A DNA stretch of 64,000 nucleotides from Alphaproteobacteria bacterium 65-37. GTDB lineage: Bacteria > Pseudomonadota > Alphaproteobacteria > Reyranellales > Reyranellaceae. Where the stretch lies: positions 1 to 64,000 of the forward strand of contig MKRV01000266.1 in NCBI GenBank assembly GCA_001897995.1, in the 5' to 3' direction. Numbering within the stretch: the first letter of the stretch is position 1; each line of letters opens with the position of its first letter. The notes under the pieces are model-generated. The model was not told where the DNA came from, searched no databases, and worked only from the letters and a program-made list of their open reading frames with translations. The position numbers and the translations under genes were made by a program. Of the stretch, positions 31,669-36,381 are shown one piece after another.

Positions 31669-31690
31669 CCTCCCCATTTGAATGGGGAGG
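31669..31690. repeat. solo palindromic repeat CCTCCCCATT-TG-AATGGGGAGG
   Basis: 10-bp perfect arms; same core as the hairpin ends of the 36100-36303 element. Confidence 0.75.
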
Positions 31691-31705: not shown

Positions 31706-32977
31706 TCAGTCGTTCGCAGCGCCGAAGCGCAGGGGGCGGAAGAAGGCGCGGATATCCTCGACCAGCAGGTCCGGCTCCTCGAGGGCGGCGAAGTGGCCGC
31801 CGCGCGGCATCGGCGTGTGCTGGCGGAGATTGTAGCAGCGCTCGATCCATTCCCTGGGGGGCGGCGGCGCGAGATCGGCCGGGAAGGCGGCGAAGGCGGT
31901 GGGCGTCTCGACCCGCTGGCTCGTCGGCAGGCCACGATCCTTCTGCTCGGACACGCCGCGATAGAGCCACGTGGCGCTGCCGGCCGTGCCGGTCAGCCAG
32001 TAGACCATGATGTTGTCCAGCAGCAGATCCATCGAGAAGCGGCTCCGCGGATCGCCGTTGCAGTCGCTCCAGGCCTGGAACTTTTCGACGATCCAGGCGG
32101 CAAGCCCGACCGGTGAATCGGCGAGCGCGACGCCAAGCGTCTGCGGCCGTGTCGCCTGGATGCGCTGGTAGGCGGTTTTGTCGTCGCGTTCGCGGCGCAC
32201 CCGCGCCAGCCAGGCCTGCTCGTCGGCGCTGAACGCGGCCTTGTCGAGATCGATGCCCGGCCGCAGGCCGATCATGTTGAGATGCAAGCCGAGCACGCCC
32301 GACTTCCAGTCTTCTCCACCCGCGCGCGAGTCCTCCTTCTCGTCCGTCACCGGATGGTCGAAGGCGAGCCACGAGGAGACGATCGAGCCCCAGTCGCCGC
32401 CCTGCGCACCGTAAGGGCGACGGTAGTTCAGCTTCTCATGCACCAGCCGATGCCACAGGCCGGCAATGGCGCGCGGGCCGATCGGGCCTGTGCTGCCGTC
32501 GCTGCGGATCGGCGGGCCGGAGAAGCCGTAGCCCGGCAGGGAGGGCACGATGACGTCGAAGGCATCGAGCGCGTCGCCGCCATGGGCCTCGGGATGGGCC
32601 AGCAGGTCGATGATGTGCAGGAACTCCACGATCGATCCCGGCCAGCCGTGGGTCACCACCAGCGGCAGCGGCCGCGGGGCGTCCTCGACCTCGGTGCCGG
32701 GCTCGCGGATGAAGTGCAGGCGCTGCGGGCCGATATCGACCAGGTAGTTGGGCCAGCGGTTGATCGCCTCCTGGCAGCGCTGCCAGTCGTAGCCGTGGCG
32801 CCAGTATTCGACCAGGTCGGCGAGAAAGCCTGGATCGGTGCCGGAGGCCCAGGAGCCGCCATCGGCGATGGCGACCGGCGGCCGCCAGCGGCGCAGCCGT
32901 TCGTCGAGGTCGATCAGCGCCCGTTCGGGGATGTCGACCTTGAAGGGTTCGGGAGTGTCGTAACGCGTGTCGGCCAT
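31706..32977 (-). CDS. epoxide hydrolase family alpha/beta hydrolase
   Basis: EHN N-term; PLVVTHGWPGSIVEFLHIIDLLAHP, PSLPGYGFSGPP, HRLVHEKLNYRRPYGAQGGDWGS. Confidence 0.9.
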   Translation of the reverse strand: MADTRYDTPEPFKVDIPERALIDLDERLRRWRPPVAIADGGSWASGTDPGFLADLVEYWRHGYDWQRCQEAINRWPNYLVDIGPQRLHFIREPGTEVEDAPRPLPLVVTHGWPGSIVEFLHIIDLLAHPEAHGGDALDAFDVIVPSLPGYGFSGPPIRSDGSTGPIGPRAIAGLWHRLVHEKLNYRRPYGAQGGDWGSIVSSWLAFDHPVTDEKEDSRAGGEDWKSGVLGLHLNMIGLRPGIDLDKAAFSADEQAWLARVRRERDDKTAYQRIQATRPQTLGVALADSPVGLAAWIVEKFQAWSDCNGDPRSRFSMDLLLDNIMVYWLTGTAGSATWLYRGVSEQKDRGLPTSQRVETPTAFAAFPADLAPPPPREWIERCYNLRQHTPMPRGGHFAALEEPDLLVEDIRAFFRPLRFGAAND

Positions 32978-32999: not shown

Positions 33000-33755
33000 T
33001 CACCCGTCCAGCAAATCGTGCTTCAGGCGCTCCCGCTCGGCGGGGCCAAGGCCGAGCGCCTTCTCGGCGAAGGCCTCGGGTGTGCCGAAGTCGTTTCGGA
33101 CGACCTCGAAGGCGGCTTCGAGATAGGGCGTGCGCGCCTCGATGATGGCCGCGCGGGTATCGATGTCGAGTTCGGGATAGCGGCCGATATGGCCGGTCCA
33201 CAGCTCGTTGGTGCGGAGATAGTCCTCCACCACCGTCTGCCAGGGAACGCCCAGCAGGCTGAGCAGCAGGGCCGACGCGAAGCCGGTGCGGTCCTTGCCG
33301 GCGGTGCAGTGGAAGACCAGCGGACGATGCACGCCGTCGCTCAAGGTGGCGAACAAGGTGCGGAAGCCCGGGGCGCAGCGGCGCGGATAGTCGCGATAAT
33401 GATCGGTCAGGAACTGCATCATGAGATGCGGGCTGGCCGTGCCGTCCTCGACCGCGCCGCGGATCTTGTCGCCGACGCCCGGTTCGATATGGGCGCCGAC
33501 GATGCGGCAGCTGACGCCTTCGATGCGGTGCGGCGTCTCGGCGGCCTCGTTCACGCCGCGCAGATCGACGATGGTGCGCACACCGATCGTGCCGAGGGCC
33601 GTGCGGTCCTCATCGGTGAGACCGCCGAGATGAGCGGAGCGGAAGACGGCGCCGCGGCGGACGAGGCGGCCGTCGGCAGTGCGATAGCCGCCGAGGTCGC
33701 GGAAGTTGGAGCCGCCTTGCAGCGGCAGCACATGGGGCAGGGTCTGATCGAGCAT
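33000..33755 (-). CDS. tyrosine-protein phosphatase (Y_phosphatase3-like)
   Basis: GGSNFRDLGGYRTADGRLVRRGAVFRSAHL and P-loop FHCTAGKDRTG. Confidence 0.92.
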   Translation of the reverse strand: MLDQTLPHVLPLQGGSNFRDLGGYRTADGRLVRRGAVFRSAHLGGLTDEDRTALGTIGVRTIVDLRGVNEAAETPHRIEGVSCRIVGAHIEPGVGDKIRGAVEDGTASPHLMMQFLTDHYRDYPRRCAPGFRTLFATLSDGVHRPLVFHCTAGKDRTGFASALLLSLLGVPWQTVVEDYLRTNELWTGHIGRYPELDIDTRAAIIEARTPYLEAAFEVVRNDFGTPEAFAEKALGLGPAERERLKHDLLDG

Positions 33756-33823: not shown

Positions 33824-36013
33824 TCAAAATTTCTGAGACAGGGTCACGAAGAAGGCCCGCCGCATTCCGTATTGCGGTGCGCCGACGCCCACGCCCGTGC
33901 CGTCGCGCAGCTGGTAGGAGAGGTCGGTGAGGTTGAGCGCGTCGAAGCGGATGGTCGTGCCCTTGCTGCCGGGCAGCGGCACCTTCTGCGCCACCGACAG
34001 GTTGAAGGTGGCATAGGCGGGCAGGGCCGTGTCGTTGGGGGTGATGACGCTGGTGCGCAGGCCGCTGCCGAACAGCATGTCGGCCGACACGCGGGTTGCA
34101 TGGTCGCTGTCCTGGTTGAAGACGTAGGCGACGCCTGCCGAACCCGTCCAGCTCTGGTCGTGGTCGGCGAAGATCCAGTGATTGGCGATGTAATTGAGGT
34201 CGGCCTGCTCGAAGTTGAACTGGGCGGAGTTGATGTTGGTGGCGGAGACTCGCGACCAGGCGAGGTTGGCGTAGGCCGACCACGGGCCCTTGTCGTAGTT
34301 GGCGAAGACCTCGAATCCTTTCACCTGCGCATAGGCGTAATTGAAGGCGGTCTGGAAGATCGGGGCGCCGAACTGGCCCTTGTCGAGATAGTTCTCGGCG
34401 AACTTGTAGAAGCCGCTGAAGCCGATCGCGAGGCCATCGACCGGCTTCACGGTGAGGCCGATGTCGAAATAGTCCGACCGCTCGGCGCGGACTGGGTCGT
34501 TTTGTGTCCCTTCGGTCGCTGCCGTGGTCCCAGCGCGCGCAGCGAGAGAGCCGAAGCCCACCTGGTTGAGCGGCGCCGGGACGAAGTAGCGGGAGTAGCC
34601 GGCGCGCAGGCTGATCTTCGGATCGGGTTCCCAGACCACGTTGATCCGGGGGCTGAGCTGGTTTTCCGTCGAAGGGCCTGAGATGGCATCGAAGCGCGCG
34701 CCGAAATTCACGGTGAGCGACGGCGTGACCTTCCATTCATCCTGCAGGTAGACGCTGTAGGTCCAGCCGACGAGGTCGGCGCCGTCAGCGAAACCCACGG
34801 GCTGCTGGCCAGGGATCAGTTCGCCCTCGGGATCGTCCGGGTTGGTTACGAACGGCAGGGCGGCGTTCTGTGCGTAGCTCGTCACCCTCTCGCGCTGGAT
34901 GAGAAAGCCGCCGCGCAGCGTGTGGTTCGAAGCGATCTTCCAACTGGCATCGGCCTGGGTCCCGACGGCGAAACTCGTGCGTTTCGCCCAGGGGGCGATG
35001 CCGTTGAACATCAGATCGCCCGTCGCGTCGGGCTGATAGGACAGGTTGGAATAGCGGACGAACCCCGAGAGTTGCAGGTTGAAGTCCTTGTAGCTCTTCT
35101 GCAGGGAAGCGATGCCGAAGTAGGTATCCTCCCACTGCCGCTGGTCGAGAAGCGAGCTGTTGAAGTCGGTAATGCCGTTCACCGAGAAGTTCGGTATCTG
35201 CCCCGGCCGATTGGGAATCTCGTAGCGGGCGCTGGCGCCGCCGGCGATGAAGCTCAGCCGCGTGTTCTCGTCGACGATGCCGGTCAGCTTGGTCAGCGCA
35301 TACCATTGCGCCGTATTGTCGTGGATCGGCAGCGCCGAGCTCGTCGGATTCTCGATGCCGATGCCGTTGTTGATGTACTGGCCGACGGCAAAATAGTCGA
35401 TGTTGCCACTGCGGCCGCCATATTCGAGGGCGGGCTGCACCCAGTTGTAGGAGCCCACCATCACCGAGGCTTCGCCGCCGGGATTGGTGGTGCCGGACTT
35501 TACGTTGATGTCGACGACGCCCGCCGTGCGCAGGCCGTACTGCGCGGGCAGGGCACCGGTGATGAGGGAGAGTGAGTCGGCAAAGCGCGGCGAGAGAATC
35601 TGGCTGAAGAGCGCGAGACCCTCTGGGAGCTGCACGCCGTCGAGACGATACTGCATGCTGCCGTGATCGCCGCGGACATGGATCTGGCCGAACCCGTCCT
35701 GCACCACGCCCGGCGCCCGCAGCAGCACCTGGTTGAGCGACGCGTTGTCGCCCAGCGGGATATTCTTGATCGCGTTGGGCCCGAAATCGTAGCGCGTTGC
35801 GCCGAGGCTTGGTTGGATCTCGCTGCGCTCGCGGTCGAGCTGCTGGGCCGTGACCTCGATGGCCGGCACGGTCACGACCGGGCCGGACCCCGTCGTCGGC
35901 GCGGGGGACGGATCGGGTTGCGTCGGACTTGTCTGAGCCCAGGCGGTACTCGCGGCCGCCAGGGAAGCCATGAGCGCCAATGCCGATACCCCCGTACGCC
36001 TGCGCAGCCGCAT
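33824..36013 (-). CDS. TonB-dependent receptor
   Basis: Signal peptide, plug IHVRGDHGSMQYRLDGVQLPEG, beta-barrel ending FFVTLSQKF. Confidence 0.93.
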   Translation of the reverse strand: MRLRRRTGVSALALMASLAAASTAWAQTSPTQPDPSPAPTTGSGPVVTVPAIEVTAQQLDRERSEIQPSLGATRYDFGPNAIKNIPLGDNASLNQVLLRAPGVVQDGFGQIHVRGDHGSMQYRLDGVQLPEGLALFSQILSPRFADSLSLITGALPAQYGLRTAGVVDINVKSGTTNPGGEASVMVGSYNWVQPALEYGGRSGNIDYFAVGQYINNGIGIENPTSSALPIHDNTAQWYALTKLTGIVDENTRLSFIAGGASARYEIPNRPGQIPNFSVNGITDFNSSLLDQRQWEDTYFGIASLQKSYKDFNLQLSGFVRYSNLSYQPDATGDLMFNGIAPWAKRTSFAVGTQADASWKIASNHTLRGGFLIQRERVTSYAQNAALPFVTNPDDPEGELIPGQQPVGFADGADLVGWTYSVYLQDEWKVTPSLTVNFGARFDAISGPSTENQLSPRINVVWEPDPKISLRAGYSRYFVPAPLNQVGFGSLAARAGTTAATEGTQNDPVRAERSDYFDIGLTVKPVDGLAIGFSGFYKFAENYLDKGQFGAPIFQTAFNYAYAQVKGFEVFANYDKGPWSAYANLAWSRVSATNINSAQFNFEQADLNYIANHWIFADHDQSWTGSAGVAYVFNQDSDHATRVSADMLFGSGLRTSVITPNDTALPAYATFNLSVAQKVPLPGSKGTTIRFDALNLTDLSYQLRDGTGVGVGAPQYGMRRAFFVTLSQKF

Positions 36014-36027
36014 CTCTCACCTTTTAT

Positions 36028-36063
36028 GTAATGTTATGCTGTAACGTTACAATATAACGTTCT
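36028..36063. promoter_or_regulatory. triple palindromic operator (Zur-box-like) upstream of the TonB-dependent receptor
   Basis: GTAATGTTAT-gct-GTAACGTTAC-aat-ATAACGTTCT: three 10-bp palindromic units with 13-bp period. Confidence 0.6.
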
Positions 36064-36099
36064 CGAAGGTCAACTGGAGTGCGGCGTTGCGATCATCTG

Positions 36100-36303
36100 T
36101 TTTGTCCTCCCCATTCAAATGGGGAGGTGCCCGCGTAGTCGCGGGCGGAGGGGGCATATCCCAGCATATGAGCAGCACTTCGCGCGAAGTAACCTTCGCA
36201 CTTGAGTGCCGCGCTCCCAGCAAGGACGCTTTGACTCAAAGGATCATGACCCCTCCGCCCCCGATTACAGGGGCACCTCCCCAATTGGATGGGGAGGACA
36301 AAA
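36100..36303. repeat. composite ~204-bp element with ~54-bp terminal inverted repeats, each made of two hairpins
   Basis: Left arm TTTTGTCCTCCCCATTCAAATGGGGAGGTGCCCGCGTAGTCGCGGGCGGAGGGG; reverse complement of right arm TTTTGTCCTCCCCATCCAATTGGGGAGGTGCCCCTGTAATCGGGGGCGGAGGGG. Confidence 0.8.
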
Positions 36304-36381
36304 CGCGCGAAACCGACTGAGCGCTTGCCGGGGGACGTACAGCGTCGATATTGGCGCCATCGGCACAAAGAGGAGCGTGAC

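Follow-up and report, generated by a model that had tools for sequence, protein, structure and literature searches.

Organization of the receptor locus

The genome under study is a Reyranella, as judged from the orthologues, and the window (i.e. the whole 64-kb stretch of DNA that was analyzed) carries a gene for a TonB-dependent receptor on its minus strand. Two enzyme genes follow the receptor on the same strand, and a short palindromic region lies directly upstream of its start codon. The features discussed below are:

33824–36013, minus strand: TonB-dependent receptor of 729 aa (PF00593), predicted to be controlled by Zur
33000–33755, minus strand: tyrosine phosphatase (PF13350), 68 bp downstream of the receptor and a possible second gene of the operon
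31706–32977, minus strand: epoxide hydrolase-like protein (PF06441), 22 bp after the phosphatase and a possible third gene of the operon
36045–36059, minus strand: predicted Zur box A, CGTTATATTGTAACG, scoring 30.2 bits, with its core GTTATATTGTAAC at 36058–36046
36032–36046, minus strand: predicted Zur box B, CGTTACAGCATAACA, scoring 29.6 bits, with its core GTTACAGCATAAC at 36045–36033
36068–36073, minus strand: putative −35 element TTGACC, its first base 14 nt from box A
36046–36051, minus strand: putative −10 element TGTAAC, inside box A, with a spacer of 16 nt

The DNA upstream of the receptor contains GTAATGTTATGCTGTAACGTTACAATATAACGTTCT at about 36028–36063, as described in the original prediction, and on the minus strand it reads TTGACC-N8-CGTTATATTGTAACGTTACAGCATAACATTACATAAAAGGTGAGAG-ATG toward the gene. 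Upstream of the receptor ATG (36013, minus strand), the units of this operator are phased at exactly 13 bp, just as had been noted. The middle unit, GTAACGTTAC, is perfectly palindromic and both outer units are imperfect. Read on the minus strand, the region holds two 13-bp cores arranged head to tail with zero gap, box B abutting box A on the gene side, and both cores fit the inverted repeat GTTAY-N3-RTAAC (i.e. RNNNYxxxRNNNY). The cores were originally described as overlapping, which does not hold, as 36058–36046 and 36045–36033 adjoin; overlap is confined to the extended boxes of 15–23 bp. Two abutting 13-bp sites are the cleanest description of the operator, and the "three palindromes at 13 bp" correspond to their junction and outer edges.

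We scored the window with a position matrix derived from the promoters of 37 orthologues, a set that excludes the window and its nearest relatives (i.e. its own clade). The two boxes score 29.6 and 30.2 bits, while the next matches in the 64 kb reach 7.9 bits (within the same operator) and 6.8 bits (an unrelated site). None of 20 shuffles of the 64 kb, and none of 2000 shuffles of the spacer, attains the scores of the boxes. Across the whole genome, the pattern at 1 mismatch gives 12 matches compared with 27 for the reversed control and shows no enrichment; as such, the argument is built on the location of the matches and on their conservation, not on their number.

Overlap with the promoter and conservation among orthologues

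The operator both overlaps putative promoter elements and is conserved among orthologues. In 42 of 46 promoters, that of the window counted, the sequence TTGA is found 14 nt ahead of the first box, as read from the printed upstream sequences. With a 16-nt spacer, the putative −10 element is TGTAAC in the window and TATAAC in many orthologues, which in each case is the right half of the box. Given the fixed distance from TTGA, this half-site of box A overlaps the putative −10 element, and a bound repressor would cover it, as has been described for Caulobacter znuK, znuL, and znuGHI. The receptor promoter is absent from the output of a generic promoter scan of the window.

Conservation was assessed in 46 orthologues with at least 59% identity and readable upstream DNA. 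A box with 1 mismatch at most precedes 44 of these, and the other two have a box with 2 mismatches. A second full box is located 13 bp further on in 5 orthologues (the window, L019, L020, L021, and L023), and in 13 others the second box is placed at 15 bp and is partly degenerate, its right half being kept and its left half degenerate. The remaining orthologues, i.e. most of them, have a single box. Spacing classes are clustered on the receptor tree, with 6 changes compared with 16.1 in shuffles; the branch of one row (L065) in this tree is aberrantly long. A supported clade unites four of the 13-bp members and adjoins most of the 15-bp members, and L023 stands apart. Given this clustering, the tree presents the doublet as a lineage-specific elaboration with shifting spacing—i.e. 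13 bp here, 15 bp in the sister clade, and a single box elsewhere.

The same motif at other zinc genes, and the regulator

The original prediction proposed the presence of the motif at zinc genes as its own test, and this was borne out. We scanned the genome (7.15 Mb in 319 contigs) by pattern and find perfect matches in three places only, including the receptor promoter. The other two are:

L001/L012, own genome: perfect match directly before a ZnuA/AztC-type zinc/substrate-binding protein
L002/L013, own genome: perfect match before an operon of a methyltransferase, a TonB receptor, and BtuF/BtuC/BtuD-like genes

Weaker boxes are located about 140 bp upstream of znuCB (17.6 bits) and 38 bp upstream of a gene for a COG0523 GTPase (16.7 bits; L014 5198–6293, own genome). 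The box of the GTPase gene is Zur-like and is kept in R. massiliensis (L201). Both znuCB and COG0523 GTPase genes are common Zur targets (PMC6103462). In R. massiliensis (G022) and in a further genome (G036), exact matches are found only at the same three kinds of gene. The motif is thus present at other zinc-uptake genes of the genome.

A Zur protein is also encoded. The genome has four Fur-family genes, i.e. Fur, a second Fur-like protein, IrrA, and Zur. The best NCBIfam match of the Zur gene (contig C76) is NF008646, at 5.9e-36 and 123.7 bits, which is below the equivalog cut-off of 167. Solved relatives of the protein include 7dh7 and E. coli Zur (4mtd), and in an alignment it keeps residues equivalent to Asp49 and Arg52 of E. 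coli Zur, whose role is described in PMC4219657. The matrix scan finds no box at the zur gene of this genome, and a literature search on Reyranella and Zur gave no relevant title. The reading of the region as a Zur operator is well supported by the matches at zinc genes, by the same sites in the two other genomes, and by the presence of a Zur gene.

The operon with BtuF/C/D-like genes (L013) has a further feature. A cobalamin riboswitch (RF00174, 128 bits; L013 5987–6389, own genome, contig C199) is located about 185 nt upstream of its Zur box, which directly precedes the methyltransferase, TonB receptor, and BtuF/C/D-like genes. The same tandem of riboswitch and Zur box occurs in R. massiliensis and G036 (L138 and L139). 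This arrangement suggests either a B12-type uptake operon that responds to B12 and zinc alike, or a promoter controlled by zinc that is located downstream of the riboswitch.

Identity and genomic linkage of the receptor

The protein has the barrel and N-terminal plug of a TonB-dependent receptor: PF00593 matches at 2.3e-30, the AlphaFold2 model has a pTM of 0.80, and TonB receptors in the PDB match it over the full length. The Pfam search matched no separate plug model, a single-sequence search of the PDB returned no match, and profile and fold searches point to generic receptors only. The receptor had been proposed to be ZnuD-like, which its sequence does not support, with no match to the ZnuD model NF038289 at E 0.001; the structure search names no ZnuD among the top 50 matches listed. 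Homology to Caulobacter ZnuK, ZnuL, or ZnuM was also rejected, as tblastn against loci with ZnuL-, ZnuM-, and ZnuK-type boxes gives no significant match; these loci are from Caulobacter-like genomes, are identified by their boxes, and cover each gene only in part.

Distant homologues of the receptor, at about 45% identity, are located next to zur in divergent orientation in Caulobacteraceae (L081, L203, and L204). Others at this level of identity are found downstream of zur (L071, a Sphingomonas), near znuABC (L074, a Phenylobacterium), and after znuA (L098, a Telmatospirillum genome). This linkage to zur and znu does not depend on the motif and provides the strongest evidence that the receptor acts in zinc uptake, which we consider likely. 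Conserved residues of the receptor include H112, H117, H231, and D617-H618; these are candidate metal contacts and serve only as a lead.

Receptor homologues in Sphingomonas and Verrucomicrobia are mostly without the GTTAY-N3-RTAAC motif. Four of the Sphingomonas homologues (L088, L091, L095, and L097) have another palindrome, for example TTGTGATAATATCACATAACAT, where the Zur box would be, and this is possibly a diverged Zur site.

The phosphatase gene is found about 50–70 bp after the receptor in most or nearly all orthologous Reyranella loci, and the epoxide hydrolase gene is next, usually close by. No terminator-like site is present on that strand in the gap between receptor and phosphatase, and co-transcription of the three genes is plausible from this arrangement. 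Beside receptor homologues outside Reyranella, we found no homologue of the phosphatase or the hydrolase.

Between the receptor and a chorismate mutase gene, the window also contains a 59-bp inverted repeat (36099–36304, 88%) with the ends CCTCCCCATT...AATGGGGAGG, which is a small repeat element of this genome. A further copy of the short palindrome is located at 31669–31690.

A model for zinc-dependent control and its alternatives

Judged from sequence, the region is very probably (probability of roughly 0.9) a Zur operator in which two dimer sites abut in tandem over the −10/start region of the receptor promoter. Observed here are the sites and their conservation, the motif shared with zinc genes, the Zur gene, and the linkage of receptor homologues to zur and znu. 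From here on we infer Zur binding, repression, and the ligand. With enough zinc, Zn-loaded Zur dimers would occupy the sites and, to go by their position, block RNA polymerase. When zinc is scarce, Zur would leave and the receptor would be made, perhaps together with the downstream phosphatase and epoxide hydrolase. The receptor would then import zinc, or a complex of it, through the outer membrane. Delivery to the cytoplasm would fall to ZnuCB and the ZnuA/AztC-type protein, whose genes have Zur-like boxes as well.

Another Fur-family regulator, i.e. Fur or Irr, might bind the operator instead, with the receptor serving in iron-siderophore uptake. Fur, the Fur-like protein, and IrrA are all present in the genome, and the receptor fold resembles that of siderophore receptors, as do those of all such receptors. 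However, exact matches to the motif are located at zinc genes, the sites have the form of those of Caulobacter Zur, and homologues are linked to zur and znuABC, which makes this explanation highly improbable. A receptor that is controlled by Zur and yet carries something other than zinc, for example cobalamin, another metal, or a compound handled with the aid of the phosphatase and epoxide hydrolase, would fit the conserved downstream enzymes and the other Zur-box operon of the genome, which looks like B12 uptake with a cobalamin riboswitch; the ligand is also not readable from sequence. Homologues outside Reyranella are found with zur or znu genes, no homologue of either enzyme was detected beside them, and we regard a non-zinc cargo as improbable.

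The number of functional sites allows for more doubt. Most orthologues have a single box and the 15-bp class has a degenerate left half in the second, as would be expected if only one box functions and the other results from drift around a palindromic half-site. Nonetheless, the 13-bp class keeps both boxes across receptors that differ by roughly 13–23% in sequence, and the 15-bp class retains the right half of its second box; a single functional box is thus unlikely, if a serious contender. For the operator with two Zur sites, cooperativity across 13 bp is possible by analogy with E. coli, whose two-dimer register fits the operator at six positions, a pattern too loose to choose among them.

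Few outer-membrane zinc receptors are known outside the ZnuD type, and both promoter context and gene linkage point to another family of zinc receptors. We propose, tentatively and with somewhat less than even odds, an unnamed Zur-linked family of zinc or zincophore receptors in Reyranellaceae, Caulobacteraceae, Sphingomonadaceae, and possibly Verrucomicrobia, in which the Reyranella operon includes a phosphatase and a hydrolase and a tandem operator, with a gap of 0 or 2 bp depending on lineage, tunes repression. The single, 13-bp, and 15-bp operators form a natural series that is already suited to relating the spacing of Zur dimers to the depth of repression. The conserved linkage also raises the question of why a phosphatase and an epoxide hydrolase would share the regulation of zinc uptake.

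Comparison with known Zur systems

The closest parallel is Caulobacter crescentus, where znuK/znuGHI, znuL, and znuM have the same GTTAY-N3-RTAAC motif at promoters of TonB receptors (PMC4176598). Caulobacter Zur targets have been shown by EMSA, and the predicted sites, for example GATGTTATATCATAACAAT, overlap the −10 element or lie between −35 and −10 (PMC4176598). One predicted site is listed per gene in that species compared with two here (PMC4176598), and the receptors below the ZnuL-, ZnuM-, and ZnuK-type boxes have no significant similarity to the Reyranella receptor.

Two Zur boxes on one promoter are likewise found at S. coelicolor znuA and B. subtilis yciC (PMC6103462). In these cases the boxes are placed at −35 and −10, whereas the Reyranella cores abut with zero gap; other Reyranella lineages have a 2-bp gap or one box. 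On the znuABC promoter, E. coli Zur binds as a dimer of dimers, each of which reads RNNNYxxxRNNNY (PMC4219657), a pattern that GTTAY-N3-RTAAC fits. The linker residues Asp49 and Arg52 are kept in Reyranella Zur. However, the two dimers within one E. coli box are shifted by 5 bp, compared with 13 bp between the Reyranella centers, so that dimers here would not necessarily make the same contact.

ZnuD of Neisseria is likewise a TonB-dependent receptor for zinc uptake under Zur control, a zinc role that in Reyranella is inferred, and the Reyranella receptor does not match its model. The receptor family is zinc-linked on this evidence and distinct from the ZnuD type. This family and the natural variation in operator spacing are new, and the kind of switch, like the kind of system, is already known.
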